From: Elusimicrobiota bacterium
GTDB taxonomy: Bacteria; Elusimicrobiota; Elusimicrobia; F11
Assembly (NCBI GenBank): GCA_022072025.1
Contig: JAJVIP010000010.1
Span: 62,001-126,000 of the forward strand
DNA: 64,000 bases
Direction: 5' to 3'
The translations under genes were made by a program, and so were the position numbers. Positions 2,240 through 45,308 of this stretch are shown here, in pieces. How positions within the stretch are numbered: the stretch's first letter is position 1; each line of letters opens with the position of its first letter. The notes beneath the pieces were generated by a model, which ran no database searches, was not told the origin of the DNA, and worked only from the letters and a program-made list of their open reading frames with translations.

Positions 2240-3145
2240 TCACAGAGTCACACCGGCAAGTCTCGACGCCTTGATGTCGTTGCCGAGAACAAGCGCGAGA
2301 TCCTCAAAAATGTCGAACTCGCTGAACTGAGACGACTTGGTCGCGAGGCGAAGCATTTTCAAGGGCGTGAGTTCTCCAATCCACGCCGCGCTCGTGTCGA
2401 CCACGAAGATGTCCGTGCAGACGTTGGAAGTTCCTTGCGTCTGGGCTTCCGAGATGAAGATGCTTCGGAAGATCGGGATTCCGTTATAGACCTGGACGCG
2501 GAATCCTCCCTTGACTTCCATCGTGTCCACGAACCGCTGCTGGGCCTGAAGGAGCGCGTTCAGCTTGCGGTTGGCTTTCTTGGACATGATGAGCATGTCG
2601 GGATTTCCCCGGTTTAGATCGATGACTTGATCCATCAAATCCAAAGACAGCGGAGCGCCGTTGGCTCCGGCGACAGCAACCTGCCCCGCCGGAATCAATT
2701 TCCGAAGCCCGTTGAATTGCTTCGGGTTCACCGTTGAGTCGCCGTTAATGAGCGCGTCCTCTTCGGCATCCCGAACAGCTTGAAGCGCGTTCTCCACCTC
2801 TTCCGCCTCAATGTCCAGAAGTGATTTCCCGACCGCCACAAGTTTCCTTGTGACTTTCCCGCGCTGGATCACGGTTTTGTATGCGAATTTCTTCTGCGCA
2901 TAGCTGGCCTGCGTCTCCACCGGCTCGTCGGTGTCGTCCACAAACGACCCGCCCGCTCCCCGACTCGTCCGCTGGTTTAAAATCCATTCTGAACCCGAGC
3001 CGGGCTTCCTCGGAAAGTTCTGTCTCAGCGGATTGTTAACTTCGATTAGCTCCTGAAGAACACGGTCCACCAGGGGTTGCTGAAGCTGGGTCCCCGCGTT
3101 GGCCATATTGAGAGCTTTTTTCAACTGCTCCAAATCATGTGTCAT
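2240..3145 (-). CDS. Phage major capsid protein (HK97 fold)
   Basis: At 301 residues it fits major capsid proteins that have no internal scaffold domain. Features of the HK97-type family are an N-terminal helix, a 'LIEVNNPLRQNFPRK' segment, conserved E-loop-like residues and a P-domain region with 'EEDALINGD', followed by the A-domain pattern (MSKKANRKLNALLQ, then VQVYNGIPIFRS). It follows the prohead protease-scaffold gene by 14 nt, the canonical order in HK97-like phages. It forms the icosahedral shell. Recognition is by family resemblance and gene order. Confidence 0.85.
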   Translation of the reverse strand: MTHDLEQLKKALNMANAGTQLQQPLVDRVLQELIEVNNPLRQNFPRKPGSGSEWILNQRTSRGAGGSFVDDTDEPVETQASYAQKKFAYKTVIQRGKVTRKLVAVGKSLLDIEAEEVENALQAVRDAEEDALINGDSTVNPKQFNGLRKLIPAGQVAVAGANGAPLSLDLMDQVIDLNRGNPDMLIMSKKANRKLNALLQAQQRFVDTMEVKGGFRVQVYNGIPIFRSIFISEAQTQGTSNVCTDIFVVDTSAAWIGELTPLKMLRLATKSSQFSEFDIFEDLALVLGNDIKASRLAGVTL

Positions 3146-3159
3146 GGCGTCATTCCTCC

Positions 3160-4257
3160 TTAGGCTTGATGAAGGGCGAGCGCCACTTTCAGCTTCTTCT
3201 GGGGCGGCAAACCTTCAAATGTTTTTTTCACTTCCTCGGTCTCCGGTTCCGGTTGGATCACTCCTTTCCGTATGGCCGGAATCTGCTTGAGAAGCGGTTC
3301 GATCTGCTTCTTGACCTCGGTTGAAATCATCTCCGCCATTTCGTCCTTGCTGACGGTCTCGGGTGAGGCCGGAGGAATAACCACTGGCGGGGTCCACATT
3401 TCGCCGACCGCCTGCTTCAGCGTCGACTTGATCTCAATCGCGGCCGGGGCGATCTCGCCACCCAGAGCGATCAGTTTGTCGAGCATCATCCAAACGGGCT
3501 CGATCTTGGCGACCACTTCGTTTCCTTTCATGGTTTCCTTGTCCTTTTTCTTGGTTTCTTTCCCGGCCACTTTCTCCGGCGGTTGATCGGAAGGATCTGG
3601 AGTCTTTTCGGGCTCCGGTTCCGGTTTAGGATCTTCCGGTTTTGGATCTGCGGCTGGCGGGGTCTCACCGGGTTTCGGATCCTCCGGATTCAGCTCGTCA
3701 ATAACGGTCTCTTCTTTTGACATGGGGTCGCCTCCTTTCTTCAGCGAATCGATTTCATCGAGGGCTTTCTTCACATACCACCCGATGGCGCGGGCCTCGG
3801 GGTTGGCCGGCACCGATACCAGCGACACCTCAACAAGGACCATCTTTTTGATGACGTTGACCACCCGGTCGAACTCGGCCATGTACTTCTTCTCGCGCTC
3901 GAGAACTTGTCCCCGGATGGAAAATTTATTGAGAACGCCCTCTTTGATTTTTTGAATGATGTTGGGTTCGGTTTGCGAAATCAGAACGTCGATCAAAAGT
4001 CCATTCTTGTCGAACTCGGCTTTGGTGACTCGCCCGATCGCCGATTCAATGTCGTGGTTCAAAAGGACAGTGGAGTTCTTGAGAAGGTCGAGGGAGGAAT
4101 TTTTCAGAGCATCTTCAGTGATAACGTCGCCCTGAAGGTCGAAATCGGTGGTGGCAGCGTAACCGACAATATGGAACTCGCCGCTTTCCTCCGTCTGTTT
4201 CATGATCTCAAGAGGAAAGGCGAACTCTACTTTGGTGATCGTCGTTTGTTCTTTCAC
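3160..4257 (-). CDS. Prohead protease with fused scaffold-like C-terminus
   Basis: Residues 1-170 match HK97-family prohead protease (peptidase S78). The strands FHIVGYAATTDFD and DVITEDAL are present, and the likely catalytic His68 (LLNHD) and Ser113 (NKFSIRG) are followed by VSLVSVPANPEARA. Residues 190-250 form a Pro/Glu/Lys-rich linker. The C-terminal ~110 residues are helical and charged, as in scaffolds fused to the protease. The protein would cleave the scaffold and capsid N-termini during head maturation. The start is GTG at 4257, four bases after a GGAG Shine-Dalgarno. An intrinsic terminator lies immediately upstream, so expression must depend on read-through or antitermination. Confidence 0.85.
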   Translation of the reverse strand: MKEQTTITKVEFAFPLEIMKQTEESGEFHIVGYAATTDFDLQGDVITEDALKNSSLDLLKNSTVLLNHDIESAIGRVTKAEFDKNGLLIDVLISQTEPNIIQKIKEGVLNKFSIRGQVLEREKKYMAEFDRVVNVIKKMVLVEVSLVSVPANPEARAIGWYVKKALDEIDSLKKGGDPMSKEETVIDELNPEDPKPGETPPAADPKPEDPKPEPEPEKTPDPSDQPPEKVAGKETKKKDKETMKGNEVVAKIEPVWMMLDKLIALGGEIAPAAIEIKSTLKQAVGEMWTPPVVIPPASPETVSKDEMAEMISTEVKKQIEPLLKQIPAIRKGVIQPEPETEEVKKTFEGLPPQKKLKVALALHQA

Positions 4258-4345: not shown

Positions 4346-4528
4346 CTAGTTTTGTTTGTTGCTAATCAATCTCTTCACGTCCTCACTCAACAGGGTTCCG
4401 TGACATTTTATCCGGGGAATCTTTCCTTTCTGGAAGTGAACCTCCAGAACGTCATAGGATTCGTCCCCGATCATCTTGTCCACGAACCGGATAAATTCGT
4501 CTCTTGTTATGGGCGCTTCTTGGCTCAC
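4346..4528 (-). CDS. Small DUF2292-like protein
   Basis: This 60-residue protein contains a short segment resembling the small DUF2292 family: a helix, then a beta hairpin 'DVLEVHFQKGKIPRIKCHG'. The C-terminus is helical (EDVKRLISN). It lies on the minus strand between the host-like cassette and the prohead protease. A plausible promoter sits upstream (TTTACA near 4562, TAAAAA near 4539). The role is unknown and the DUF2292 link is tentative. Confidence 0.55.
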   Translation of the reverse strand: MSQEAPITRDEFIRFVDKMIGDESYDVLEVHFQKGKIPRIKCHGTLLSEDVKRLISNKQN

Positions 4529-4563
4529 CCCATCTTTTTACCGCAATCAATTGAATCTTGTAA

Positions 4564-4584
4564 ATAAACAATCAAATTGTTTAT
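4564..4584. promoter_or_regulatory. Operator-like perfect inverted repeat
   Basis: ATAAACAAT and ATTGTTTAT form a perfect 9-bp inverted repeat separated by CAA. It lies in the 258-bp gap (4529-4786) between the small gene at 4346-4528 and the CsgG/FlgO-like gene, beside the probable promoter of the former. The geometry fits a dimeric repressor site, but no cognate regulator was identified. I see nothing else clear in this gap. Confidence 0.4.
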
Positions 4585-4786: not shown

Positions 4787-6019
4787 TTAATTACTTTTAC
4801 TTTTCAATGGCGATTCCGCCAAAAGGCGCCTGATATGATATGCCGCATCTTCTACGCAATTTCTTTTACCTTGAATTTTTATCTTTGCATTTGGGAAATT
4901 TGAATCAATTTGGCTAACAAGACTCTCTCGCTCTGATGCGGACAATGCCAAGCTCCCATTCGGCTGAAATGGAAATTCCTTCACTAAATGTGCGCTGCCA
5001 GCTGAAAGCGACATAATTGACTCCCATAGTGCGGTTGTTTCTGCGCCTACCTTGAGGAGTTGGTCGCCTAATTCAACACTATTGGCATTTACTTTATTTG
5101 ATTGTAATGCGACGAGAGATTTTTTGCACATGTCGATTTCAATTTCATTTTTCTTCAATAGCAATTCATACTTTTGCTTTAGATTATATGCGCCATTGCT
5201 AATGTGATTGCTTTCATTATTATCAATGTACGGATTAATTAAAGATATCGCCCTGTGCAGGTAAGGCTGCCCGTTCCTTATGCTGCTAATCTTGCTCACG
5301 AAAAAACCTGACATATCGCTCTCACTACTTTTACCCGGATAGGCAAACTTAACAGCTTTATTAGCGTAAACCAACGTACCTATTATGGTTGAAAGATACT
5401 CCTTTGGAGTCGTGGTAGATATTATGTCTTTGTTGGAATTATCACTTTCAGATCCACTTTTTTTTGGCCTTTTTTCTCGTTCGCGTTCTTCTAGAGTTAG
5501 GTTGCCAATTAATGAAAAGAACTCTTTATTTTTACGTATTTCATGGTTCACTCCCCCATGAAGAATTCCCTTCTCAACATCAACGATTTTTATATTCACG
5601 CCAACCAATGATTTTAATTCTGTGACGGTTCCATACATCACGGTTTTCGCCCCAAGTATTTTCCCTATTCCGATCACGGTTTTTTCATCAAGCAATCCAA
5701 TGTCGGACAGTTTCTTTTCCTCCAGCACGGTTCCGATAGACCTTCTTTCTAATACAGTCGCTCCTAAGTTGGACAGGGCAATATTGAGTTGATCAGCTAA
5801 ATATTTCCCAAAGTAAGTTGTTCTCCCATCCAAATCTTGAAAATCCATCACTAGAACAGCGCTTTTATCTGGGATCTTTTTGTAGGTTTGTTTTGCAATG
5901 GTTGTTACTGATTTATCCAATCCGCTACTGCTTCCAAATGCCAGATGGATCGGGATGGTAAGTAATAAAACGAGGAGTGAAATACTTGCGACAGATTTTT
6001 TCACGAGAACATTCATCAT
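4787..6019 (-). CDS. CsgG/FlgO-like exported protein
   Basis: The protein has a signal peptide (MNVLVKKS followed by a hydrophobic stretch to about residue 30). Residues ~50-160 resemble the FlgO/CsgG/TolB N-terminal fold: SAVLVMDFQDLDG, YLADQLNIALSN, VLERRSIGTVLEE, then a GAKTVMYGTVTEL strand. CsgG secretes curli subunits across the outer membrane, and FlgO works with FlgP and FlgT in the Vibrio flagellar outer ring. The remaining ~250 residues are helical and unrecognised. An in-frame TTG at 6040 exists, but the ATG-ATG at 6019 places the signal peptide properly. No lipobox is evident. It is the last minus-strand gene of the cassette inserted in the phage head operon, and its neighbours include LPP20 (FlgP-like) and FlgT-like proteins. 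Confidence 0.65.
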   Translation of the reverse strand: MMNVLVKKSVASISLLVLLLTIPIHLAFGSSSGLDKSVTTIAKQTYKKIPDKSAVLVMDFQDLDGRTTYFGKYLADQLNIALSNLGATVLERRSIGTVLEEKKLSDIGLLDEKTVIGIGKILGAKTVMYGTVTELKSLVGVNIKIVDVEKGILHGGVNHEIRKNKEFFSLIGNLTLEEREREKRPKKSGSESDNSNKDIISTTTPKEYLSTIIGTLVYANKAVKFAYPGKSSESDMSGFFVSKISSIRNGQPYLHRAISLINPYIDNNESNHISNGAYNLKQKYELLLKKNEIEIDMCKKSLVALQSNKVNANSVELGDQLLKVGAETTALWESIMSLSAGSAHLVKEFPFQPNGSLALSASERESLVSQIDSNFPNAKIKIQGKRNCVEDAAYHIRRLLAESPLKSKSN

Positions 6020-6135
6020 ATGGATAAAGGCTATACGCAAAACGACTTGTTATCAATGAACAAATCTTAATTTTTATCTTCTAAAAACGCTTGATTCTAC
6101 CCTGCCTGATAATCAAAACCGCCGAAACTCTATGT

Positions 6136-6897
6136 TCAGGCTGCTTTTTGTCCGCCGCAGGCTAACGCCAAATCCAGCGCACAGTTCAGATACCGATAGG
6201 ACGTGTTCACGTCCTTAAAGTCTATGAACGCATATGAAATGCCTTGAACATCCAACGTAACAGAAAGCAAATCCTTAAAATCACTGTGCGAGACGTCCCC
6301 TTCCGAAGGCGGCCCAATGATTATTGCGTTTGAAGAGTTTGCCTTTTTACATGCATCCACCATGGCGCTGTAATTAATTTTTCCTTTGTAGCCATACGAG
6401 ACCTTGCCTAAGCAAGTTGCCTCAATTTTCAGAAGGTGCTTTTTGATGGCATCGAGGAAGTTTTTCTCAGCAGCCTCTGCAGCCTGCAACTCCCCTTCGG
6501 GATACAGGACAATGAAAAGCGGTTTTTTGGGCTCTAAATCGGGACCTGTCAGTTTTCCATAATGCGGATTACGCTTAAAGCTAGGCGGTGTGTCAGGTGC
6601 GGCCTGAATTTCGTCAGGGCTATCAAACAACAGATTTTCATTTCCCGATTTTCGAATATGAGATTCGAGTTTTTCAATTCTTTCCTCATACTCCTCGAGT
6701 TTGGTTTGAAGGTCCAAATCATCGACTTCATTTTCCAATAAACTGAATTTCACCTTGTCGATTTTTGATTCGATGGATGACGTTTTCCATGCACTCCAGA
6801 GATACAAAGCAAACAAATATATTCCCAGAACACCAATTTTATTTGACGTAAGATACGGCGTAATAATTATTACCGCGAAAAATAATATGTCTTTCAT
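6136..6897 (-). CDS. Membrane-anchored coiled-coil protein of unknown function
   Basis: This 253-residue protein has a strong GGAGG Shine-Dalgarno. Residues 1-37 carry one or two hydrophobic helices (ILFFAVIIITPYL, GVLGIYLFALYLWSAW). Residues ~40-85 form an acidic coiled coil (LEENVD-type heptads, KLEEYEERIEKLESH). A Pro-rich linker leads to a C-terminal alpha/beta domain (~120-250) with strands PLFIVLYPEG and NAIIIGPPSEGD. The last domain resembles a small nucleotide or ligand-binding fold, but no motif is diagnostic. It lies between the kinase and the CsgG/FlgO-like gene and is probably co-transcribed with the kinase (23-nt gap). Confidence 0.6.
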   Translation of the reverse strand: MKDILFFAVIIITPYLTSNKIGVLGIYLFALYLWSAWKTSSIESKIDKVKFSLLENEVDDLDLQTKLEEYEERIEKLESHIRKSGNENLLFDSPDEIQAAPDTPPSFKRNPHYGKLTGPDLEPKKPLFIVLYPEGELQAAEAAEKNFLDAIKKHLLKIEATCLGKVSYGYKGKINYSAMVDACKKANSSNAIIIGPPSEGDVSHSDFKDLLSVTLDVQGISYAFIDFKDVNTSYRYLNCALDLALACGGQKAA

Positions 6898-6920
6898 GAT
6901 TCCTCCATTTTCCTAATGGC

Positions 6921-9674
6921 TCATTTTTTTCGACTGACGATATCGGTGACCTCTATGCTCTTCAAAGCATTCTCAAAAACCAATTCATACTTGGGATAAT
7001 CCTTTAATTCCGATGCGCATAAAAAGGTGTAAGACATCTTGTTGGCAACCACGGTCAACGCGACAGATCTGACGCTGCGGCCGAGAATGGTTGTGTTAAA
7101 AGATTGCTTTATTCCTTGGTAGCCGCGTTCCTTAACTGGAAGAAATGAATCCACCTTGGCACTCCATCCACCGTCATTAAATATCTCGATCAGCTCCTCC
7201 GCGGCCGCTTTCAATTCACCATCATAGGGCCCGACCGTCACGTTAATCCGCGGGGCATATTCCGCTTGCGAGTGTGGATCTTGAAAATTAACGAGAGGAC
7301 CTTTCAAGGGCGCAACCACCCACTCCTTGGGATACTTGAAAAATAAGCCGTACTCCTTGTTCACATATCCTTCCGGTGTCACGCCCTCGACGATTTTGGC
7401 GGCAGGATCTGCTTCGATAAATTGTTTCTGTTGAAGATAATTGGCACGAATCTGAGCATTTCCAGGGTCCGCTTTTAGGGCTTTTTCATAGTACAAGAGC
7501 GCCTCGTGATGTTGGTTGGCTCCGGCTAGCTTACTGGCTAAAAACGAATATGTCATCGAAGATTGATCGCCCAATTCAATCGCTATTTTTTGAGCCTGGA
7601 TCGATTCTTGCATCCGGCCCTGCTCCCATAAAACCATGCTTATTCCGTTTTGGTGCTGAGGATTCTTCGGCTCTAACGCGGCGAGAACACGATATTGATT
7701 TTCCGATTCCTGGTATTTCTTGAGTTTAAAAAGCGCCAGCGCTTTGACCCCAACAAGCCCAATGTCTTTGGGCTGAACTTCAAGTCCATTAGAAGCGGTT
7801 ATTACGCATTTCGAATAATCGGCCAAATCAAAATAATTCCATGCGAGAAGATTAACGCTGGAAATATATTTTGGATTGAGGGCAACGGCCTTTTCCAAAT
7901 AGGGCAATGCTTTCTTCTTCTCACCTTGATCTCTCAAAAGTTTTCCCATCATCAGATTTGCAGAGAACGATCCACTGTGTTTTGAATATCGCGACTCAAT
8001 CGCTTTGATTGCCTCTGCCGTTCGGCCCAGATGACTTAATCGAGCTGCATATGTCGCCAACACCTCAAGATCTGCGGGAGCTTGGTCAATAATCTCCTCG
8101 TCAATGGCCAAGGCTTTTTCATGTTCGCCTCGATCTGAATGGGCCATCGCCAAGTATGCCTTGGCTTCGTAGTCATTTGGCGCGCGTCTCAGCGCCTCGT
8201 TTAATTCTTGTATCGCTTCATCGGTCTTTTTCATCTGTAAATAAGTTCGCGCTTTTTCGATGTAAGGCTTGGGTGAACGTGGATTTAGACTGATGGCCTC
8301 TCGGATGATCTCAAGGGATTCCTCTGGCCGATTTCCTAATCGCCGGATTTCTGCTTTCTCCAACATCAGAGTCGATTGCGCCTTTTGTGATTTGCCGGTC
8401 ATCAACCGCTGCCACCCAAACCCTAATGCCAATAAGGAAATCAAGATGCTTGTGAAAACGACTTTCCTGTGACGCCGCAGAGTTTTTAGAAATCGTGTAA
8501 ACGGCGTATAAAGTCTGGCGGCTACAGGCTGATGCTGAAGGTGGCGAGTGACGTCCTCCGAAAAGTCTTTCATGGCGGCGTAGCGCCGGCGAGGTGATTT
8601 CTCCATAGCCTTGAGGACTATTGCCTCTAGATCAGGAGCAATTTGAGAGTTAATCAACCGCGGCGGTTTCGGTTCTTGTTTTTGAATAAGTTTAAGAGTC
8701 TTGGCGATATTGCCGCCGTCAAATGGACGTGCCAAAGTCAACATCTCGTAAAAGCTAGCGCCAACACCGTATACGTCCACCAAAGCAATAGATGAGGTTT
8801 TAACGCCCTCAATCTGCTCCGGAGCCATATAGTACGGCGTTCCGAAAAGCTCCGCGGTTAACGTTAACGCCGGCGCATCCGCTTCAAAAGTTAATCCGAA
8901 ATCAATAACGCGAGCGATCCCTGTTTCATCAATTAGAATATTGGACGGTTTGATATCCCGGTGTACAACCCCGGCTTCATGGGCATGCGAGAGAGCGGAA
9001 CACACCGCACCCAATAATCGTGAAATAAAAGATTCCCATTCGATTGACTCTTTCGTATCCAGCTGGAAACCGCGATTGATTAGACATGCCTTAACATACT
9101 TTTCAACGTCCTTCGCTCTTAGAGGGTTTCCCTTGGCCTCGCTGAAAGTTCGGATCAAATCATCCATGCCGATTCCTCGCACATAATCCATCGCCAGATA
9201 TCGGTAACCGTCTTGTTCACCGGCCGTGTAAATTGTGACGATGTTTGGGTGGTGTAACTTTGCTAGTGATCGCGCCTCCCGCACAAATCTTTTTAGGGAT
9301 GCGATTGTTGAATTGATTCGCGGGGGGATCACTTTAAGGGCCACGAGACGATTCAGAGAAATTTGGTTGGCGAGATAGACAATCCCGATGCCCCCTCTGC
9401 CGATTTCACGGATGAGCTTGAAATCGCCAATGGTTTTACCTGTTAGGGAGATGCTGCCCCACGGGATATTCATCTGTGAAACAGCATGGGGCGAAATAAT
9501 TGAGAGCGCCTGTCGAATGGACTTATAGGCTTGGAGTTTTTTCTGGAGAGCTGGTTTCAGTTCAGGGTAATCTTCAAAAAGACTTTCCGGATTTGATTTG
9601 CCTTCATCGGCCTCGATAAGGAACCGGACAAAAACATCGCTGGCATTTGATTGAGTGTTTGTATTCTTCATCAT
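6921..9674 (-). CDS. Transmembrane Ser/Thr protein kinase with TPR and PsbP/DcrB-like sensor domain
   Basis: This 917-residue protein has four parts. Residues 1-80 are a helical N-terminus. Residues ~83-385 are a complete Hanks-type kinase: GRGGIGIVY glycine loop, Lys114 in VALKV, HRDIKPSN at 238-245, DFG at 258-260, APE at 284-286. A single transmembrane helix spans ~404-422. An extracytoplasmic part carries about nine TPRs (~430-765), then a domain (~785-910) opening with YGLFFKYPKEW that resembles PsbP/DcrB-like proteins. All catalytic residues are present. The gene overlaps the ECF sigma gene by 4 nt (ATGA), which suggests a coupled sensor kinase-sigma pair of the type common in Planctomycetes. 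What the extracellular domain senses is unknown. Confidence 0.85.
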   Translation of the reverse strand: MMKNTNTQSNASDVFVRFLIEADEGKSNPESLFEDYPELKPALQKKLQAYKSIRQALSIISPHAVSQMNIPWGSISLTGKTIGDFKLIREIGRGGIGIVYLANQISLNRLVALKVIPPRINSTIASLKRFVREARSLAKLHHPNIVTIYTAGEQDGYRYLAMDYVRGIGMDDLIRTFSEAKGNPLRAKDVEKYVKACLINRGFQLDTKESIEWESFISRLLGAVCSALSHAHEAGVVHRDIKPSNILIDETGIARVIDFGLTFEADAPALTLTAELFGTPYYMAPEQIEGVKTSSIALVDVYGVGASFYEMLTLARPFDGGNIAKTLKLIQKQEPKPPRLINSQIAPDLEAIVLKAMEKSPRRRYAAMKDFSEDVTRHLQHQPVAARLYTPFTRFLKTLRRHRKVVFTSILISLLALGFGWQRLMTGKSQKAQSTLMLEKAEIRRLGNRPEESLEIIREAISLNPRSPKPYIEKARTYLQMKKTDEAIQELNEALRRAPNDYEAKAYLAMAHSDRGEHEKALAIDEEIIDQAPADLEVLATYAARLSHLGRTAEAIKAIESRYSKHSGSFSANLMMGKLLRDQGEKKKALPYLEKAVALNPKYISSVNLLAWNYFDLADYSKCVITASNGLEVQPKDIGLVGVKALALFKLKKYQESENQYRVLAALEPKNPQHQNGISMVLWEQGRMQESIQAQKIAIELGDQSSMTYSFLASKLAGANQHHEALLYYEKALKADPGNAQIRANYLQQKQFIEADPAAKIVEGVTPEGYVNKEYGLFFKYPKEWVVAPLKGPLVNFQDPHSQAEYAPRINVTVGPYDGELKAAAEELIEIFNDGGWSAKVDSFLPVKERGYQGIKQSFNTTILGRSVRSVALTVVANKMSYTFLCASELKDYPKYELVFENALKSIEVTDIVSRKK

Positions 9675-10303
9675 CCTGTTCCAGATAGTTCCTCGTATTT
9701 TGTTGCCAACCTTTCAACTGCTCGATGGTAAAGCATCCGGGCTGCGTCCGGTGACCGGCTCATCTTTTCACCTATCTCGGAGAACTCAAGTCCATCAAAA
9801 TCACGAAGCCGTATGACTTCTTGATCATCCTCCGCAAGCGAATCCAAAATGCCTTCGACACGCTTAACTTCTTCAGACAAAATCAGTTCGCCACTAGGGC
9901 TTTTGTCGGGACCTTGAATTTCGGCCCCTGACGGCTCACCATCGCTATCGGGGGGTCCCATCGATTCAAGAGGAATCTCTTTCAAAACCGAACGCTTCTC
10001 AGCCTTAAAATAATCGGCCTTATCGCGTATTCGATTGGCAGCCAGAGTTGAAAACCAATGTGCCAGCGCCCCCTCGCTTTGCGGCTCGAAATCTTGAAGC
10101 CCAGAAATCGCTTCGGTCAATACCTCTTGGACAATGTCCATTGATTGCACTTTGGTCCGAAGACCGGGCCCCAATCGAGATCGCACAGACATCAATATTC
10201 GCATCCCATAACGTTTGAGGAGCTCATTTAACGCATCCTCATCGCCTTCCTGAAATTGCCGCAATAATAGGATTGACCTATCCAGTTGAACGCTTCTATC
10301 CAT
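9671..10303 (-). CDS. ECF-type RNA polymerase sigma factor coupled to the kinase
   Basis: Region 2 is at residues ~40-110 (DIVQEVLTEAISGLQDFE and HWFSTLAANRIRDKADYF). Region 4 is at the C-terminus (LAEDDQEVIRLRDFDGLEFSEIGEKM then ARMLYHRAVERL). A charged, Ser/Gly-rich linker (ESMGPPDSDGEPSGAE) joins them. It resembles the planctomycete/acidobacterial sigma factors that are encoded beside Ser/Thr kinases. The frame is open 32 codons further to 10399, but those residues are not sigma-like and would abut the divergent gene, so ATG at 10303 is preferred. It probably directs transcription of the cassette; no anti-sigma factor is visible, so phosphorylation by the kinase is the likely control. Confidence 0.8.
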   Translation of the reverse strand: MDRSVQLDRSILLLRQFQEGDEDALNELLKRYGMRILMSVRSRLGPGLRTKVQSMDIVQEVLTEAISGLQDFEPQSEGALAHWFSTLAANRIRDKADYFKAEKRSVLKEIPLESMGPPDSDGEPSGAEIQGPDKSPSGELILSEEVKRVEGILDSLAEDDQEVIRLRDFDGLEFSEIGEKMSRSPDAARMLYHRAVERLATKYEELSGTG

Positions 10304-10401
10304 CCTCGAAATGTATGGCGAAAACAGCGTATTTTCAACGCGTTTGTAAATGTTCGCTTCGCGTCGATTTTCCTCTCTAATAGCCGGAGGACAATGCAAA
10401 C

Positions 10402-12609
10402 ATGAATCAGCCTATTACGCATCGATATTCAAAAAAAATGGGAATCACGGTGAGCTTCATATTCCTCATTCAGATCGTGTTTTCAGGCCATTTTTCTCTG
10501 GCAAGTGGTGCGGAGAAACTCACCGACAAATCAGCACGAAAACTACCGCCATGGGTCAAACAAATAACCCCACCCAAAAATGGCGTCCTGTACTTTGTCG
10601 GGATTCATAGCAAGGCCAGCAATCTAGAAGATGGGCGGGACGGTGCACTTATTGATGCTGCTTCCCAAATCTCAAATCGAATCGGTGTGTCCATCTCGAC
10701 GCGTCATATTGCGCGCAAGTCAAAAACCGAGTCGTTGGTTATCGATGATGGACGCACGGCCAGTCAGGCCTTTGTGGAGGGGTGTAGGATGGAAGACCTT
10801 TACTGGGAGCGGTGGCGGGAGACAAATACCGGCGCATCTATTTACAAGGTTTGGGTTCTTATCGCCTACGACGAGAAAGCTTTGCTCAATCAGAAAAACA
10901 AAGCGATAAACGCAAAACGCGCTTATGACGACTCGTTGCGGTCACTGTGCCTTGAAATCAGAAAAGCGGCACCGGCCTTAAAACTAAACGCTCTAACCGT
11001 CTCTGGGTTCACAGAGCAGATCACCGAGAAACGATATTCGTTGAGCCGAGTGATTGAGTCCGATCTATCCACTCAGCTGGCCAGCCTCGGCGTTAAGGTT
11101 TCGCCAGCACCGTCTCAATTTGTTCTCACTGGAAACTACAGAGAACAGAACAACTCCATTCGAATCGCCTCTCAGATTTATAGCAAACAGTCGAAATCAA
11201 CCATCTTCGCCAAAACCATCGAAATTCCAAAAGGCGCAATCGATCCCGAATGGCTGAAATTGGAATTCTCAATTGATGATCCCTACTTTTCCGATTTAGA
11301 GACAGAGTCCATTGAAAAACAAGAGACCGGGCACTTAACCGTTGTTTCCAATCCACCAGGGGCGGATGTCTTTCTAAACACGGAATCCAAAGGGAAGACC
11401 AACGTCACCATCCATGATGTGCCTGTTGGCTCTCACAGCCTCCTCCTCACGCTGTCAAACTTTGAGGACGTCATTGGCACCGTAACTGTGAGGCAGCACG
11501 GAATGACTCAATTCAACGCCAAACTTAACCGCCGCAAAGGGACTCTCTCGATCAGAAGCAATCCTCCCGGCGCGAAAATTTGGCTGGACGGTCGTTTTAC
11601 GGCAAGGAATACGCCATTCGTGTTTTCCGAACTTTTGGAGGGCCCTCACCAAATACGCCTACAGCTCGCGAAACACAAGGATTACATCGCCACAATTGAG
11701 GTTCCATACCGCGACACCGGCCACGCCGATATCGCGCTCGTTGAAATGGATGGCTCATTGCTCGTGAAATCAAATCCGCCAGGAGCGAAAGTATTTCTCA
11801 ATGACACGACGCTTGGGACGATTCAAGCTGGCAAACCTTTTGTTGCCCAGAATATCCCATCGGGAGAAGCCATCTTGCGACTGGAGCTTTTGGGTTATGA
11901 GGAATGGGAAGGCACAGTTTTGATCCGCCCCAATACCGTTTCGACCCAAGTTGTCAATTTAAAGAAAGCGACATTTGGGCAATTGAAAATTGAGACCAAT
12001 TACCGTGATATCGCGGTTTCCATCAATGGTGAAGACGCAGGCGTTACGGACGGTGACGGATTTCTCACAGTGAAACTGCCATCTGGCAAGCACACTGTGA
12101 CGATCCAGGAAAGCGGATACGATGACTGGAAAAGAGAAATCAATGTTAGGCCGGGCGAAGAAACCTTTCTTAAAGCGGACATCACGAAAATCTATCAAGC
12201 CCCGGACGTGAAGTTAAATGCCGGGCTTAAATCTCTTGTGTTCCCTGGATGGGGGCAATACCAAAACAATGAGGATCGGAAGGGGCTCATTGTCGGATGT
12301 GCTTTTTGGGGTTCGGTGCTTTTTGCAGCAGTCTTCGCTGCGGAAGCGGACGCTTCGTATGACGAATACCAGCAAACCACGGATCCACAAATGGCCGACT
12401 ACTACTATGACGACGCCAAAGCAATGGATCAGACCGCCACGGCCTTTTCATGGATCGCAGTTGGGTTTTGGGCTTACGGGGTCATCGATGCGACAGTCGT
12501 ACAGAATCAGTCAGGGAATTATGCCCAGGGCTATCACCAAGAGGGATGGAGCGCAGATCTCAATCCCAAATTGAAGGAAACGAAGGTCGTTTACACGAGA
12601 AGGTTTTAA
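10402..12609 (+). CDS. FlgT/LPP20-like N-terminus, four PEGA repeats and DUF5683 membrane C-terminus
   Basis: This 735-residue exported protein has its signal peptide best placed from an internal ATG at 10438 (MGITVSFIFLIQIVFSG). Residues ~48-165 resemble LPP20/FlgT (PPWVKQ, GVLYFVGIHS). Residues ~195-290 resemble the FlgO-like middle domain. Four PEGA beta-sandwiches start near residues 310, 382, 455 and 528, three of them opening with the hallmark SNPPGA. The end (~600-715) matches DUF5683: an SLVFPGWGQYQN motif and two hydrophobic helices. PEGA domains usually bind peptidoglycan or serve as surface spacers. The gene diverges from the ECF sigma gene across a ~100-bp promoter region and is the first gene of a rightward group of envelope proteins. 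Confidence 0.75.
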   Translation: MNQPITHRYSKKMGITVSFIFLIQIVFSGHFSLASGAEKLTDKSARKLPPWVKQITPPKNGVLYFVGIHSKASNLEDGRDGALIDAASQISNRIGVSISTRHIARKSKTESLVIDDGRTASQAFVEGCRMEDLYWERWRETNTGASIYKVWVLIAYDEKALLNQKNKAINAKRAYDDSLRSLCLEIRKAAPALKLNALTVSGFTEQITEKRYSLSRVIESDLSTQLASLGVKVSPAPSQFVLTGNYREQNNSIRIASQIYSKQSKSTIFAKTIEIPKGAIDPEWLKLEFSIDDPYFSDLETESIEKQETGHLTVVSNPPGADVFLNTESKGKTNVTIHDVPVGSHSLLLTLSNFEDVIGTVTVRQHGMTQFNAKLNRRKGTLSIRSNPPGAKIWLDGRFTARNTPFVFSELLEGPHQIRLQLAKHKDYIATIEVPYRDTGHADIALVEMDGSLLVKSNPPGAKVFLNDTTLGTIQAGKPFVAQNIPSGEAILRLELLGYEEWEGTVLIRPNTVSTQVVNLKKATFGQLKIETNYRDIAVSINGEDAGVTDGDGFLTVKLPSGKHTVTIQESGYDDWKREINVRPGEETFLKADITKIYQAPDVKLNAGLKSLVFPGWGQYQNNEDRKGLIVGCAFWGSVLFAAVFAAEADASYDEYQQTTDPQMADYYYDDAKAMDQTATAFSWIAVGFWAYGVIDATVVQNQSGNYAQGYHQEGWSADLNPKLKETKVVYTRRF

Positions 12610-12610
12610 G

Positions 12611-13027
12611 ATGAAAACCGCTAATCGAGTCCTATTCATCTTAATCATGGCAGGCTTAGTTGGTTGCCGGTTTTCATCTCCGGATCGGGAACGATCAAAT
12701 CCATTGGACCCTGCATCAACCACACAGCCCGACAGAATTACCGATTTGCATCTGTATCCAGAAAATCCGGTGGTTAATTTTGGTGGATGGACGGCCACGA
12801 TTAATTTGCACTCACAAATTCAACTGGCTTCAGGAGTAGACCCCTACTTCGTGAATTACATCTGGAGCGCTACCCCTTCCGATGGCGTGAGCGTTCCCTA
12901 TGTTTATAGCTCTGGAACTTTTACAGCCTATCGTACAGGCCAATTTCAAATCACGTTGACCGCAATGGTCGATGGCGAGATGAGATCAGCAACAACAACT
13001 GTCACCGTAAAAAATACCGGGACTTAA
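12611..13027 (+). CDS. Lipoprotein with Ig-like beta-sandwich
   Basis: This 138-residue protein begins with a lipoprotein signal (RVLFILIMAGLVGC, lipobox LVGC at ~19-22). The body is beta-rich and resembles a bacterial Ig/PKD-like domain: YIWSATPSDG, GTFTAYRTGQFQITLTAMVDG, then TTTVTVKN. It begins 1 nt after the PEGA gene stop, so the two are translationally coupled. The function is not known; an envelope partner of the PEGA protein is likely. Confidence 0.6.
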   Translation: MKTANRVLFILIMAGLVGCRFSSPDRERSNPLDPASTTQPDRITDLHLYPENPVVNFGGWTATINLHSQIQLASGVDPYFVNYIWSATPSDGVSVPYVYSSGTFTAYRTGQFQITLTAMVDGEMRSATTTVTVKNTGT

Positions 13028-13044
13028 AAAGGAGGTCGTGTGTC

Positions 13045-13641
13045 ATGAAAAAAATCAACGTTGTACTCGTAGCTGTAGCCGCAGGGTTGTTTGTTCAGGG
13101 GTGTGCCGGCCCCTCCAAAATGATCGGATCCCAAAGAATCGTCGAGCGGATGCCTTCGAGAGAGCCGGAATGGAAGTCACTCTCCCAGTGGGAGAAAAAA
13201 GACCAGCTCTACTTTGTGGGGGCGGTAATGAACGTAAGCGATATGGCGCTTGGGTTTCGCGAAGCAAAGGCCGAAGCCGAAAAAAAGATCGCTGAGCAAA
13301 TTAAAGAACGCATCAGAACGGAGTTTGGAAAAGCCGTTGAAGGCCAGAACATCGACAATCAGTTGGGCGTGTATGTGAAAGATGTCATCGTAAAAGTGTC
13401 CGAGAACGTCCCAGTCTCAGGTATAGCGGAAAACGAACGGTTCACCGAGCGCTATGAAGAGACCACCGGGTTCGGGATCAAATACGGATACAACTGCTTC
13501 GTCCTCTTAGCGCTGCATCGCGCAGACTACCTAGAGGCCCGTAAAAATGTCTTGGAAGGTGCAGTTGAACAGGCGAAACGTGAGAAGAACATAAAAGCCG
13601 AGGAAAGCCTTAAAGCGGCTTTCGAAAAACTCGAAGATTGA
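13045..13641 (+). CDS. LPP20/FlgP-like lipoprotein
   Basis: The protein has a lipoprotein signal with lipobox FVQGC near residue 19, and a strong AAAGGAGG site precedes its ATG. The mature part contains an LPP20 domain: LYFVGAVMNVSDMALGFREA, a helical AKAEAEKKIAEQIKERI segment, and YGYNCFVLLAL. LPP20-family proteins include Helicobacter LPP20 and Vibrio FlgP, which form part of an outer-membrane ring with FlgO and FlgT. The C-terminal ~40 residues form a charged helix. It lies 17 nt after the Ig-like lipoprotein in the same rightward transcript. Confidence 0.75.
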   Translation: MKKINVVLVAVAAGLFVQGCAGPSKMIGSQRIVERMPSREPEWKSLSQWEKKDQLYFVGAVMNVSDMALGFREAKAEAEKKIAEQIKERIRTEFGKAVEGQNIDNQLGVYVKDVIVKVSENVPVSGIAENERFTERYEETTGFGIKYGYNCFVLLALHRADYLEARKNVLEGAVEQAKREKNIKAEESLKAAFEKLED

Positions 13642-13721
13642 TGCAATAGCCCATGTTTTACCATTGGAATGTCACCTGTTTGTAACAAGACATCGCCAAA
13701 ATATCTTCTGGAGGTATGGTT

Positions 13722-14210
13722 ATGAGATTCGTCTTAACTGGACTTGTGATATTCGGATTCTGCGCGACGCTAATGGCAGGAGACTATAGTTGGGAGAATT
13801 CCCCTTACAATTGGAATAATTCACAATCCAAGTGGGAAAATTCTCCGAGCAATCACACCAATAATTCGTCCAATTGGAAGAATTCTCCTTCGAATTGGAA
13901 CAATTCCATCAACAATAGAGAAAACACAGAATCGAATTGGAGCAATTCTTCAAGTAATTGGGATAATTCGCCGAGCAACTGGACAAACAACAAAGCTAAT
14001 AGAAACAGAACATCTATCACCGATGATAATGGAAATTCAATCGGGTATGCGGTCCCAAAGAAAAACGGCGGATATAACCTCTACGATGATGATGGGAATC
14101 GAATTGGTTACACGACATCAGAAGGACGGAGTATTTTTAATAGCGAAGGTGACCGCTCTGGATACGCCGTTCCAAAACGAAAAGGTGGATATAACCTATA
14201 TCAGGACTGA
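13722..14210 (+). CDS. Secreted Trp-Asn-Ser heptad-repeat protein
   Basis: After a signal peptide (MRFVLTGLVIFGFCATLMAG), about residues 24-93 are ten uninterrupted heptads of consensus W-x-N-S-x-x-N; Trp is replaced by His once and Arg once within the array. A second part carries two copies of GYAVPK(K/R)xGGYNLY separated by GNRIGYTT and SEGRSIFNS segments. Base composition is AT-rich and Asn-rich compared with its neighbours. ATG at 13722 has a GGAGG seven bases upstream and is preferred over ATG at 13716. Such regular repeats suggest a solenoid or fibre-forming surface protein. It ends the envelope group and may be exported by the CsgG/FlgO-like protein encoded nearby. That link is inference; I know of no characterised homologue. 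Confidence 0.7.
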   Translation: MRFVLTGLVIFGFCATLMAGDYSWENSPYNWNNSQSKWENSPSNHTNNSSNWKNSPSNWNNSINNRENTESNWSNSSSNWDNSPSNWTNNKANRNRTSITDDNGNSIGYAVPKKNGGYNLYDDDGNRIGYTTSEGRSIFNSEGDRSGYAVPKRKGGYNLYQD

Positions 14211-14238
14211 CGCAATATCTATCGAATAGGAGAACGTC

Positions 14239-14568
14239 ATGGCGAGGATCAATCGATATGAGAAGATAAGCACTGACCCTAGGCGCATTATGACAGTGGA
14301 AGTTTCATTCGACGATTCGAATCCAAATGAAAAAAAGCTCCTTATTGAAAAAATAAGCTCGGATCTAAATACGTTGGATCTGTCCAAATATCCTGCGGGT
14401 TTTAAGGGATATTGGGAACTGACGCAGTCGCAAGTGGTGGAATTTTTTGATTTGCGGGAAATGTCCCGACCAAAATCAGTGAATTCTAGTTGGGTAGAGT
14501 TAGAGTGTGATGGAAAACAGCAGCTCATGGCTGATGTTCTTGACGCCGTCAAGTCATCTTTGCGTTAA
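14239..14568 (+). CDS. Small cytoplasmic protein, unknown
   Basis: This 109-residue protein has no signal peptide or membrane segment. It shows an alternating alpha/beta pattern: TVEVSFDDSNPNEKKLLIEKI, then a helix 'SQVVEFFDLREM', a WVELECDG strand and a C-terminal helix. GGAGA lies just upstream of the ATG. It is the last plus-strand gene of the cassette and its stop overlaps the convergent methylase stop by 4 nt, which marks the cassette's right edge. I do not recognise the family. Confidence 0.5.
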   Translation: MARINRYEKISTDPRRIMTVEVSFDDSNPNEKKLLIEKISSDLNTLDLSKYPAGFKGYWELTQSQVVEFFDLREMSRPKSVNSSWVELECDGKQQLMADVLDAVKSSLR

Positions 14569-16610
14569 GAATGACCCTCAACGTAAAGTTCCGATTGCTT
14601 CACAGGATAATTGGAAACGAGAAGCTCGTATTTGTAGCGATGCCCCAATTGATTAGCACCCGTCCATAGCGTTTTTACACGGTAGGTTTTGAAACCCTTG
14701 AATATTCGGCTCTTTTCTAGCTCGTAACTCAATAAAAATCGCCCCTTGATCTTGTGAAGAGTCTCTAACAGATCATCCTCTTTGAAGAACTTCGACCCGA
14801 CGCCACGGCTCTCGTCCGGCCAATGATTTGGGTAAGGCGGATCCAGATAGAAAAAGGCGTTGCTGGAATCGAATAACTTGATTACATCCCGCCAGTCTTT
14901 GTTGAGAAGTTTCACGCCCTGCAACCGTGCCTTGATATCAGGCAGGCGAGGTACGAGTTGGATTTTGTAGCCCTCCCCCTTTGAGCCGGTCCGCATGCCC
15001 TCAATCCGGTCCGTTCGGCCCCAGTAGTTGGCTTTGTTGAGATAAGCGATCCGGTAGAACCGCTCGCGGGCCGATCTCGGCTCATGATTGAAGACTTTTT
15101 TCACATGGGATCTTGAAATGACCCAATACTGTTTGCCAAGCCACTCGTGGTCTTCGTCGTCCATCTTTTTGAGAAACCGGTAAGCGAAAATGAGATCCGG
15201 GTTAATGTCGTTTAACACCTCTTCATTCGACCGCTTCTTGTGGAAGAACACTTGGGCGCCGCCGCAGAAACCTTCGACGAATGTTTTATGTTCGGGGATC
15301 ATGGGAACCAGCTTTTTACAGAGCCGGAATTTCCCGCCGGGGCTTTTAAAAGCTCCCTGGAGTTTTTCAAGGTCTTCGACGTCGTCGTATTGAGGGAAGA
15401 TAAGCGTCATCTCGCTCTCCATCCCTTCCGGTTTGGGGTCCAAGGCCTTGTCGATGTAGAGGTTGAGCGGCTGGAGTTTGTTTTTTGAGACCAACAATTC
15501 CGTCACCCACTCTTGATTGCCGCCCGGCCCCCTCATCTGGTTTCGCCTCTTCACGCGATAAACATTGAATCCCTTGAAGGCGTTTGCCCGCTCCGCGGTG
15601 TAGGACACGATCCAGTCTGCCTTCAGGCTCTTAAGCGTCTTGATGAACTTCTCCTCTTCAAACCCGAAATCGAAAAGGTTGAAGGTGCCCGGGTACGGCG
15701 GGTCGATGTAAAAGAAGGTGTCCTCTCCGTCATATTTTTTGAAGACGTCCGCGTAATCTTTGTTGTGAACCGCGACATTTTTAATTCGTTGCTGGGCGCG
15801 GGTGATGTTGTTCTCAAAATCAATCGTCACACCTTCATTGGCGGGGTTAAAGGAACCGCCGCGCTGTTTTCCATAGGATGAGCGCGTCAGGTAATAAGCC
15901 TTGTAGAACCGGTCCATCTCGGAATCGGAGTTGGATTTCTTCAGGCGTTCGTGCGTCTCTTTTTTGATCACCCAGTTCCGTTTGGCAAGCGCTGATCGTT
16001 GCTCCGGTGTGTGGTCGCGAATGAACCGGTACATAAAAGCAATCTCGGAATCCCGGTCATTGATGACTTCTTGGGGAGATGGGTCTTTGGCGAAGAGAAC
16101 GGCGGCGCCGCCCGCGAACGGTTCCACGTAAGTTTTGTGGTAAGGAATGTAAGAGGCGATCTTGTGTGCGAGGGCCCGCTTCCCGCCATAAGATCCAAAT
16201 GCCTGACGAACGCCCTTTTCCGCATCGCCTTCAAAGATCAATTCCTCGATCTCAATGTCTCCGATGGATTTCTCATCGCCTTCGGGAATCTCATCTTCGC
16301 CGCCCATCTCTCCGTCAGGTTCGGTCGGATCAGGTCTGCCCGATCGCTCCGTCAACTGATCGTTGATGGAATGGGAAAACGCCCGTCGACGCATCTCGGA
16401 CTGAACGGTTTTGTGAAGATCGATCAGATCTTCGGCGTCCCAATCCGAGGCGTTAAAGAAAACGCGGTGGCCTTCCTCCAGAAATTTCCATGACCGGTGC
16501 AGGATAAAGTCCATCGACAAGAGTTCTTGGTCGGTCAGCTCCTCGGGATCCAGTTGGAAGAGATTTCCGAACTGAGCCAGGTTGATCTTCGATATTTCAA
16601 GTGTTTGCAT
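14565..16610 (-). CDS. Tandem double D12-class adenine DNA methyltransferase
   Basis: This 681-residue protein contains two complete Dam/D12-type N6-adenine methylase domains. The first has GGKRAL near 142, AdoMet motif EPFAGGA at 163-169 and catalytic DPPYPG at 303-308. The second has SPGGKFRL at 423-430, EGFCGGA at 446-452 (Gly in place of the usual Pro) and DPPYPN at 590-595. Both also carry the family's middle helices (FYKAYYLTRSSYG / FYRIAYLNKANYW). A ~130-residue acidic N-terminal extension may tether it to the head operon products. Ordinary Dam enzymes are ~270-300 residues, so this is a duplication-fusion. It sits directly after the portal gene (2-nt gap) and may protect phage DNA or mark it at packaging. 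Confidence 0.85.
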   Translation of the reverse strand: MQTLEISKINLAQFGNLFQLDPEELTDQELLSMDFILHRSWKFLEEGHRVFFNASDWDAEDLIDLHKTVQSEMRRRAFSHSINDQLTERSGRPDPTEPDGEMGGEDEIPEGDEKSIGDIEIEELIFEGDAEKGVRQAFGSYGGKRALAHKIASYIPYHKTYVEPFAGGAAVLFAKDPSPQEVINDRDSEIAFMYRFIRDHTPEQRSALAKRNWVIKKETHERLKKSNSDSEMDRFYKAYYLTRSSYGKQRGGSFNPANEGVTIDFENNITRAQQRIKNVAVHNKDYADVFKKYDGEDTFFYIDPPYPGTFNLFDFGFEEEKFIKTLKSLKADWIVSYTAERANAFKGFNVYRVKRRNQMRGPGGNQEWVTELLVSKNKLQPLNLYIDKALDPKPEGMESEMTLIFPQYDDVEDLEKLQGAFKSPGGKFRLCKKLVPMIPEHKTFVEGFCGGAQVFFHKKRSNEEVLNDINPDLIFAYRFLKKMDDEDHEWLGKQYWVISRSHVKKVFNHEPRSARERFYRIAYLNKANYWGRTDRIEGMRTGSKGEGYKIQLVPRLPDIKARLQGVKLLNKDWRDVIKLFDSSNAFFYLDPPYPNHWPDESRGVGSKFFKEDDLLETLHKIKGRFLLSYELEKSRIFKGFKTYRVKTLWTGANQLGHRYKYELLVSNYPVKQSELYVEGHS

Positions 16611-34152: not shown

Positions 34153-35070
34153 ATGCCCTTTTCTTTTAATGACAAGTTGGTCATCGCGGTTTCATCCAGA
34201 GCCCTCTTCGATCTTGAGGCAGAGAACAAGGTATTCAACCAAAAGGGACTAAAAACATACCGGCAACTCCAACGTCGGAATGAACGTAAAATTCTTCGCA
34301 AGGGTACGGCGTTCTCACTCGTCCAAAAGCTTCTAAAGTTAAATCAACTTCTCTCCACCGAATTGACTGAAGTTGTTTTAGTCTCGAACAACGATGCTGA
34401 CACGGCCGTTCGTATTTTCAACTCCATCGAAAAGTATTCCCTACCTATTCTTCGCGCTGCGTTCACAAATGGTGCACCAAAATTCAAGTATCTTAAGGCG
34501 TTTAATTCCAAGCTATATTTATCCTGTAGCACTCATGACGTCAGAGAAGCCCTCGAGAAAGGGTTTGCCGCGGCGCACGTTGTTCATAAGAAATCAACCA
34601 CCCTTCTAAATGGAACCCACGATGATGAATTACGCATTGGATTTGACTTTGATGGCGTCCTGGCGGATGACAGCGCGGAATCGGTATATCAGCGGAAAGA
34701 CTTGAAGGCATTTGTCTCGTATGAAAAACGGTTTGCGAAAAAATCTCATCGCCCTGGACCAATCTATGAATTCCTAAAAGCGATTGGTCAGCTAAGGCAG
34801 GTAGCGGAAGATAAGGCAGGGAAAAATCACCCAAAAATTCGAACTGCAATCGTCACTGCAAGGGACGCCCGGGTACATAAGCGGTTAGTAACGACTTGCC
34901 GCAACAAAGGCCTCATCATTGATGAAACCTTCTTTTTAGGTGGCGCCGAGAAAGCACCATTCATTAATTCTTTCGCTCCGGATATTTACTTTGATGATCA
35001 ACTCAAACATCTCGAACCTGCCAAGAATGTGGCCACAGCTTTTGTCCCATACGGCATAGTCAATCGCTGA
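34153..35070 (+). CDS. Cytosolic 5'-nucleotidase family protein
   Basis: This 305-residue protein resembles the cN-I/PF06189 5'-nucleotidases: N-terminal KLVIAVSSRALFDLEAEN, a middle LRAAFTNG, and a nucleophile motif IGFDFDGVLADD (D-x-D). VTARDARVHKRLV and a late IYFDDQLKHL complete the HAD-like site. It would hydrolyse nucleoside monophosphates. It follows the RecB-like nuclease by 64 nt and may act on the products of DNA degradation or lower nucleotide pools as part of a defence response. The latter is inference. Confidence 0.8.
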   Translation: MPFSFNDKLVIAVSSRALFDLEAENKVFNQKGLKTYRQLQRRNERKILRKGTAFSLVQKLLKLNQLLSTELTEVVLVSNNDADTAVRIFNSIEKYSLPILRAAFTNGAPKFKYLKAFNSKLYLSCSTHDVREALEKGFAAAHVVHKKSTTLLNGTHDDELRIGFDFDGVLADDSAESVYQRKDLKAFVSYEKRFAKKSHRPGPIYEFLKAIGQLRQVAEDKAGKNHPKIRTAIVTARDARVHKRLVTTCRNKGLIIDETFFLGGAEKAPFINSFAPDIYFDDQLKHLEPAKNVATAFVPYGIVNR

Positions 35071-35112
35071 AAATCATCCATCCATAAGCAAGTTAAATAA
35101 CGATCAATAAGT

Positions 35113-35658
35113 TTATTCTTGTCGTAATTTGACGATGTGGCTTCGACGACTTGCTTCTTCATCGCACCTTTCATAAGAAAATACAGTTGAGCCAGCTTTG
35201 CTGAATGCTTTTTTCATGTTAACGGGAAGGACAAAAAACTCTGTTTGGCGCATATTCCCTTCAACAAAAAATCCGATAACGAGAAAAATCGAAATCTTCG
35301 TCATCCCCTTTTTCTTGAATTCGGTTCGTAGCTTTTTTAATTTGTCATCCAAATTCGATAAATGCAGTGGAGAGTTTTTCTGCTGTGTCGCCAAATAGAA
35401 AAACTGAGGCGCTTCGCTTCCCTTGAAAACCACTCCTTGGCTGTCGGCTGCCAGGCCGTCAAGAAACGCATGCTCAAGAGGCTGTGGCGCAACTCCATTG
35501 TTCTGAAGGACTGAAAAAAACAGTTCCTTCAAAGTTCGATGCCGATCAGAATTCTTCGGAGAACGTCCATCCCTTTCAATCACAGGTTTGGGTGGGTAGT
35601 TAGGGTCAATTTTTGAGAAGTTGAGGTTGCCACCCCAATCGACGGGCTTATACTTCAT
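35113..35658 (-). CDS. Unknown protein at the end of the restriction-like operon
   Basis: This 181-residue protein has no signal peptide. The middle has a helical stretch (TLKELFFSVLQNNGVAPQPLEHAFLDGL), followed by strands (GVVFKGSEAPQFFYLATQQ; KISIFLVIGFFVEGN; TEFFVLPVNMKKAF). It lies 21 nt after the EVE/nuclease gene on the same strand, so it may be the fifth gene of that operon. I do not recognise the family. Confidence 0.5.
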   Translation of the reverse strand: MKYKPVDWGGNLNFSKIDPNYPPKPVIERDGRSPKNSDRHRTLKELFFSVLQNNGVAPQPLEHAFLDGLAADSQGVVFKGSEAPQFFYLATQQKNSPLHLSNLDDKLKKLRTEFKKKGMTKISIFLVIGFFVEGNMRQTEFFVLPVNMKKAFSKAGSTVFSYERCDEEASRRSHIVKLRQE

Positions 35659-35679
35659 TTTATTTTTTCCTGCTTTTGA

Positions 35680-36972: not shown

Positions 36973-37073
36973 AGATATTCTCAGCTTGTTGTGAGCACTT
37001 TAATGAAAACAACAATTTTTTCCTTCGACGGATTGCGTTCAAACCGCATCGCTTCTTGAAGAATGCTTGCAAT

Positions 37074-43423: not shown

Positions 43424-43428
43424 TCCCT

Positions 43429-43653: not shown

Positions 43654-43877
43654 CGATTCGAATCAAATCAATTTTATACGAGGGTGTCAAAAATAATAAC
43701 CGAATTCTCCTTGCGACGGTAATGGCTGAAAACACGCTGACGTAAGTTAAAACCCACCCCCATCTCCAACTAATTCCTGACATTTCGCGGCCGAATCCCG
43801 TCTCTTTATAGATAAGGCCATCCTTCCCTCATTCGGCGGGACGGCTTGACTCTTTTATTTAACGAAGGTAGGTCCGT

Positions 43878-44066: not shown

Positions 44067-44081
44067 GAGGAGGAGACGATT

Positions 44082-45206: not shown

Positions 45207-45308
45207 CTGATTACGCCTCCCCCCTTAAATCTCTTAGATCGCCTCTCTTACCTTGGATTGATTGGTTCCCTGTTCTCCAAATCCCAGTTGGCTCAAACTG
45301 TTGAATTC

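Follow-up and report, generated by a model that had tools for sequence, protein, structure and literature searches.

Introduction

Antiviral systems are known to accumulate at phage hotspots; in those of P2-like and P4-like phages, variable and largely defensive cargo lies between two conserved phage genes and is absent in some members (PMC9122126). Among sigma factors of the extracytoplasmic function (ECF) type, those of group ECF43 have their acidic motif replaced, and phosphorylation by a kinase encoded next to them provides the charge instead (PMC8999054, PMC13147305). In flagellated bacteria, rings or disks in the outer membrane are built from LPP20-family and FlgT proteins (PMC12222027, PMC11756786). 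Here we describe a locus with features of all three: a cassette of nine genes at positions 4787-14568 of a 64,000-nucleotide stretch of Elusimicrobiota DNA (the window; G000:C10:62001-126000, from a 3.6-Mb draft host genome, G000, in 43 contigs). The cassette is inserted phage cargo, absent from close relatives of the phage and lower in G+C content, and it occupies a junction at which other prophages carry other cargo. We consider it rather probable that it is lysogenic-conversion (moron) cargo at a dedicated hotspot, acting in the lysogen as an envelope unit under its own control, by which the cell envelope would be remodelled or reinforced.

Results

The cassette is an insertion between two phage transcription units

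Nine intact open reading frames lie between the phage DNA methylase (stop at 14565) and the head protease and capsid genes, at about the positions at which an earlier note, made from the letters alone, had placed the nine genes of an envelope and signalling cassette. Their status as cargo, also proposed there, was assessed on six IMG/VR contigs with capsids 78-87% identical to that of the window, extended by capsid alignment and read gene by gene. In L013, L014/L015, L017, L018 and L072 the protease follows about 0.35-0.4 kb past the methylase, with zero cassette genes between them. Two prophages of genome G158 have an empty methylase-protease junction too, as do G021 and G007 with slightly different spacing. 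With a junction of no more than about 0.35 kb in at least seven related phages, the cassette is a real insertion. Its composition is consistent with this: 45.6% G+C (left arm 44.7%, right arm 47.3%) versus 53.3% and 54.6% on the two phage sides, with 52.6% in the host stretch at window 49-64 kb. The cassette is thus cargo and not a set of standard phage genes, as the earlier note had held.

The comparison with relatives lacking the cassette also gave its ends. The right end lies at 14565-14568, where the final cassette gene, closing at 14568, abuts the methylase stop; the left end falls between 4582 and 4787. No direct repeat of at least 8 nt, as a target-site duplication would leave, was found between the two junction stretches, and none of the nine genes encodes a transposase or integrase.

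Contrary to the earlier note, the head operon is not interrupted by the insert. Past the methylase stop, the relatives have a AAACTGTTTAAACAGTTT-type palindrome, which is not perfect in all of them, then TATGGACA-like and TTAGAAT-like elements, a gene of about 60 codons and the protease. The window retains on the minus strand both the palindrome with a -35-like hexamer (AAACAATTTGATTGTTTATTTACA; 4559-4582), which stands at the orthologous position with similar sequence in most relatives read, and the small gene (4346-4528), which starts with GTG, encodes a 60-residue phage protein and is found by tblastn at the same place upstream of the protease in most relatives. The window's -10-like element is poor; conservation and position make the palindrome a candidate promoter or operator of the head operon and the left boundary of the hotspot described below. 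The cassette lies upstream of both this promoter-like site and the small first gene, and therefore the head operon itself is intact: the insert separates one phage transcription unit from the next.

All flanking genes belong to one phage. On the left, these are the major capsid protein (2240-3145, minus strand; 77-89% identical to close relatives) and the head maturation protease (3160-4257, minus strand; a phage protein match); on the right, the order is terminase-portal-methylase, with a double-domain DNA methylase (14565-16610, minus strand; PHROG 1.6e-92) that is a conserved neighbour in the relatives. Compared relative by relative, every flanking gene was assigned to a single phage family. 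The earlier note had named two findings that would speak against it, namely related phages with these genes as standard virion genes and flanks drawn from two different prophages. Neither was observed: the cassette genes are absent from all relatives read, and all flanking genes match single relatives, which rules out a chimera of two joined prophages.

The junction is a recurrent cargo hotspot

A capsid alignment search of 341 Elusimicrobiota genomes found the phage family of the window in 9. The host genome alone holds six related prophage capsid genes, two on contig C10 (at 64 kb and 152 kb) and one each on C13, C4, C7 and C30, two of these others lying at contig edges. No attachment repeat of at least 14 nt was found for the prophage of the window between C10:37001-48000 and window 43000-49500.

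In about ten relatives, other cargo occupies the junction between the methylase and the head promoter-like site. It comprises AbiU2 (PF18734) with a membrane protein (L016), a single small membrane protein (L073), three genes of which one is NOV_C/PDDEXK-like (L074), a GmrSD_N protein (G005, where the methylase region is masked), Mrr_cat-AIPR with an AbiU-like protein (G014), and Sel1 repeats with a small protein (G024). In the host genome, all readable prophage junctions are occupied, each with different cargo: a DnaJ-domain protein with an HNH protein on C7, a PIN_12 protein on C30 and GmrSD_N at 152 kb on C10. Most of these cargos are likewise lower in G+C than the rest of their phage. The junction is thus a recurrent hotspot, and its cargo consists mostly, not only, of predicted defence genes. 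Like the P2 and P4 hotspots, it holds variable cargo between conserved phage genes and is empty in some members; unlike them, it belongs to another phage family and host phylum, lies at a methylase/head-promoter site, and takes cargo that can reach 10 kb and bring a sigma-kinase regulator of its own. A moron hotspot is a known kind of site, and what is new here is the cargo of the cassette.

Three further observations were made. On C13, an AcrB/CzcA-type RND efflux pump gene (L110:342-3464) stops 0.06 kb or less short of the small gene, and the contig ends before the methylase; on C4, a gene of this kind has its tail (L111:53-958) at a contig edge and is probably the same element. Efflux cargo in the same hotspot is possible. 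Within the window, a second low-G+C cargo block (34153-43423), between replication genes and integrase, carries a 5'-nucleotidase (PDC-S08 match), a Type IIG restriction-methylase and an HKD-Snf2 helicase. A candidate defence pair, PDC-M68A/M68B, lies at 45309-48297, just past the integrase (44082-45206).

The left arm encodes a kinase and an ECF sigma factor

The sigma-kinase pair that the earlier note had described as the cassette's own regulator is present on the minus strand, the two genes overlapping by 4 nt. The kinase (6921-9674), a transmembrane Ser/Thr kinase, has a catalytic domain with intact ALKVI, HRDIKPSN, DFG and APE motifs, tetratricopeptide repeats (TPR; Pfam Pkinase and TPR, 3e-44) and a weak PsbP-like C-terminal domain. 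One hydrophobic helix of residues 405-421 is predicted to put the TPR and PsbP-like parts outside. The sigma factor (9671-10303; Pfam sigma-70 region 4/ECF) is nearest to TIGR02984 in NCBIfam. Its sigma2.2 motif reads QSMD, where usual sigmas have DAED. It adjoins a Hanks-type kinase gene, and no anti-sigma gene was found among the nine cassette genes, which is the arrangement of ECF sigmas linked to Ser/Thr kinases. ECF43 proper is defined by a QTTA-type sigma2.2 with a phospho-Thr at position 3; with QSMD and TIGR02984 as its best family, the cassette sigma is not ECF43 by motif, so that it may be said to work like ECF43 and not to be one.

Comparison with the EcfP-PknT and EcfK-PknS pairs (PMC8999054, PMC13147305) makes this concrete. 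In both cases an ECF gene adjoins a transmembrane Ser/Thr kinase gene and sigma2.2 has reduced acidity; unlike those pairs, the cassette has a Planctomycetaceae-type sigma (TIGR02984) with QSMD instead of QTTA, it is borne by a prophage, and its presumed output is lipoproteins and not a type VI secretion system.

Two further genes complete the arm. The first encodes a CsgG/FlgO-like exported protein of 417 residues (4787-6040, minus strand; Pfam CsgG 4e-6 and FlgO 1.8e-5, both above cut-off) with a hydrophobic N-terminus, an N-terminal part alignable to chromosomal FlgO-like genes, and an extra C-terminal region. The second encodes a membrane coiled-coil protein (6136-6897, minus strand) whose C-terminal domain of about 120 residues (residues 120-250) is shared with DnaA-like AAA+ proteins of the phylum and occurs in larger proteins of 44 of the 341 Elusimicrobiota genomes. 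The bearer in the host genome (G000:C7:238578-238934) is a DnaA-like AAA+ protein (Bac_DnaA 2.5e-55) that adjoins a histidine kinase gene. A weak PprPIWI match of the coiled-coil protein was treated as chance.

The right arm encodes predicted envelope proteins

With the ATG at 10303 as the ECF start, the divergent starts are separated by 98 nt (10304-10401), matching the shared region given earlier; we predict that it serves as a shared divergent promoter region. No sigma-70-type promoter match is listed on its plus strand, and scans of the cassette for sigma-70 promoters and terminators gave no excess over shuffles.

The right arm, on the plus strand, opens with a FlgT-like protein (10402-12609) composed of an SHS2/LPP20-like domain, a TolB-N/LpoB-like domain, four PEGA repeats (Pfam 4e-50) and a DUF5683-like C-terminus. 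A model of the second domain from a shallow alignment best matches PelC, LpoB and TolB (E about 1e-3, probability 1.00), and FlgT is not among the top 50. A small lipoprotein follows (12611-13027; lipobox LVGC), weakly PKD/Ig-like (PKD E 0.071). The LPP20/FlgP-like lipoprotein (13045-13641) was placed by a family profile of 15 sequences, which matches the solved Lpp20 of Helicobacter pylori (PDB 5OK8) at E 3.6e-4; Pfam alone gives 0.028. Its model (predicted local distance difference test score 87, from a shallow alignment) has the order beta-alpha-(alpha)-beta-beta. The beta-hairpin insert by which FlgP forms rings (PMC12222027) is not seen in this model, which has a helix at residues 105-119 instead.

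Two genes complete the arm: an exported Trp-Asn-Ser heptad protein (13716-14210), which has W-x-N-S and GYxVPxxxGGYNLY repeats and for which searches of phages, plasmids and the remaining genomes of the phylum gave no homologue, and an unknown 109-residue protein (14239-14568) at the right boundary. The output proteins of the cassette carry signal or lipobox sequences.

As in the flagellar FlgO-FlgP-FlgT ring proteins and H. pylori Lpp20 (PMC12222027, PMC11756786), FlgO/CsgG-, LPP20- and FlgT-like proteins occur together here, with an SHS2-like element order in the models. Unlike in those systems, the FlgP hairpin is replaced by a helix, the FlgT-like protein carries PEGA and DUF5683-like parts, and neither flagellin nor FlgH was found in the host genome, which rules out a flagellar accessory role.

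The core is part of a module on Elusimicrobiota chromosomes

Where tested, IMG/VR, GenBank phages and plasmids contained no relative of the cassette's PEGA, LPP20 or heptad proteins. Within Elusimicrobiota, LPP20-like relatives occur in 28 of 341 genomes from several families, and a FlgT-like gene neighbours LPP20 in about 21 of the 28 chromosomal loci fetched; a separate genome-wide scan with the LPP20 alignment gave at least one locus. In the f10 lineage (G053, G093, G096, G097, G108 and G114), a FlgO-like gene lies upstream of LPP20-FlgT, with a kinase-TPR gene nearby in G097. The core of the cassette (FlgO/CsgG-like, LPP20 and FlgT-like PEGA proteins) is part of a chromosomal module of the phylum; and because relatives of LPP20, FlgT and the coiled-coil domain occur across Elusimicrobiota, most of the cassette is native to it. 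The earlier note had known of no described system with this gene set. The exact set was indeed found once, and a search of one literature library yielded no paper with PEGA and LPP20 together; the core set, as seen above, recurs on chromosomes.

The closest LPP20 and FlgT/PEGA relatives lie in G024, G195 and G206 (L028, L062 and L063). The LPP20 of the prophage shares a clade with theirs and that of G220 (support 1.000) and is 51% identical to that of G195. As in the cassette, a sigma gene and a TPR-enzyme gene lie near: an overlapping sigma-like and TPR-CHAT pair, about 1-2.5 kb upstream of LPP20-FlgT/PEGA (CHAT 7e-56 in G206). Unlike in the cassette, a CHAT peptidase replaces the kinase, a separate FlgO-like gene was not detected, and the loci are not phage-borne. 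Type III-E CRISPR offers a known case of a sigma factor linked to a TPR-CHAT peptidase (Csx29/Csx30, PMC10028731), and the pairing in these three loci may represent a peptidase-gated sigma.

The closest ECF relative in the phylum, 41% identical and followed by a kinase-TPR gene, is that of G059 (L135:6942-14285). In this chromosomal locus the ECF and kinase-TPR genes diverge from genes for a DUF4384 protein, a PorV-like protein and a WD40/caspase-like protein. The sigma2.2 motif is ESQD, and both QSMD and ESQD are acid-depleted with a Ser. By repeating the divergent ECF-kinase layout, G059 supports the prediction that the envelope genes opposite the sigma are under its control.

Discussion

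We propose the following mechanism. The outer TPR/PsbP-like part of the kinase would sense an envelope signal, and the membrane kinase would phosphorylate the ECF sigma encoded just upstream. The activated sigma would then transcribe both arms, its putative regulon, from the shared 98-nt region. The output would be an outer-membrane lipoprotein assembly of the FlgO-, LPP20/FlgP- and FlgT-like PEGA proteins with exported accessory proteins, which would remodel, reinforce or mask the envelope of the lysogen. That the cassette alters this envelope, as first suggested in the earlier note, is plausible and unproven.

Several points weigh against this proposal. No second instance of the complete gene set was found. 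The DUF5683 and LPP20 matches lie below the Pfam cut-off, and Foldseek with the LPP20-like model gave no significant PDB match. The membrane helix of the kinase is short, at 17 residues. QSMD keeps one acidic residue, and ECF groups other than ECF43 may work differently (PMC8999054); regulation of the cassette by its sigma is presumed.

Two alternatives concern function. First, the cassette could be a module that answers envelope stress in general, or predators, and plays no part against or for phages, acquired by chance as selfish fitness cargo, in parallel with the polymyxin- and amoeba-responsive ECF-kinase systems. ECF43-kinase pairs do drive polymyxin and protist resistance (PMC8999054, PMC13147305), and chromosomal relatives occur in several Elusimicrobiota families; this explanation, which we hold to be possible but somewhat unlikely, overlaps the moron reading and differs from it in the trigger alone. 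Second, the cassette could serve superinfection exclusion, the kinase and sigma detecting envelope perturbation by an incoming phage and the lipoprotein complex blocking adsorption or DNA entry. The site favours it, since the same junction in relatives holds mostly predicted defence genes (GmrSD_N twice, AIPR/AbiU-like, AbiU2, HNH, PIN and NOV_C/PDDEXK-like) and phage hotspots are known for antiviral systems (PMC9122126). However, the site also holds an RND efflux pump and a Sel1 protein, the core sits on chromosomes without a phage link, and PADLOC gives generic kinase matches only (with the LPP20-like protein and the ECF outside the scan). Nothing in the cassette proteins shows such a role, and although it is the leading one among the novel readings, we regard it as unlikely.

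The remaining two alternatives concern the nature of the insert. A 43-contig draft with six related prophages invites misassembly, by which a host segment might have been stitched into a prophage; yet the two flanks agree with the same phages in every gene, the cassette ends coincide exactly with the junction that other cargo occupies, and two separate joins at that point would be required for a chimera. We hold an artefact to be very improbable. That these are virion or late genes of the phage lineage, such as structural accessories, is scarcely credible and was ruled out by their absence from all relatives read: the position between packaging and head genes and the shared direction of left arm and head operon would suit them, but the lower G+C, the sigma-kinase pair, the lipoprotein signals and a right arm opposing the late genes do not.

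A wider, speculative reading, which we regard as unlikely, is a new mobile class of envelope-surveillance systems in Elusimicrobiota, in which an outer-membrane LPP20/FlgT-PEGA complex is joined to a swappable sigma-enzyme pair (ECF with TPR-kinase, or sigma with TPR-CHAT). Phages would disseminate these systems by way of a defence hotspot, and the lysogen would gain protection against other phages or predators.

The phage family of a poorly studied phylum thus has a hotspot for exchangeable cargo, and one of its prophages bears what appears to be a complete signal-to-envelope circuit. This makes two ideas testable: that prophages may give their lysogens an inducible envelope programme under a sigma factor of their own, and that FlgO, LPP20 and FlgT proteins may serve a purpose unrelated to flagella. 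The occurrence of one envelope module in both a kinase and a CHAT version suggests an exchangeable control part, which would be relevant to bacterial signalling and immunity.

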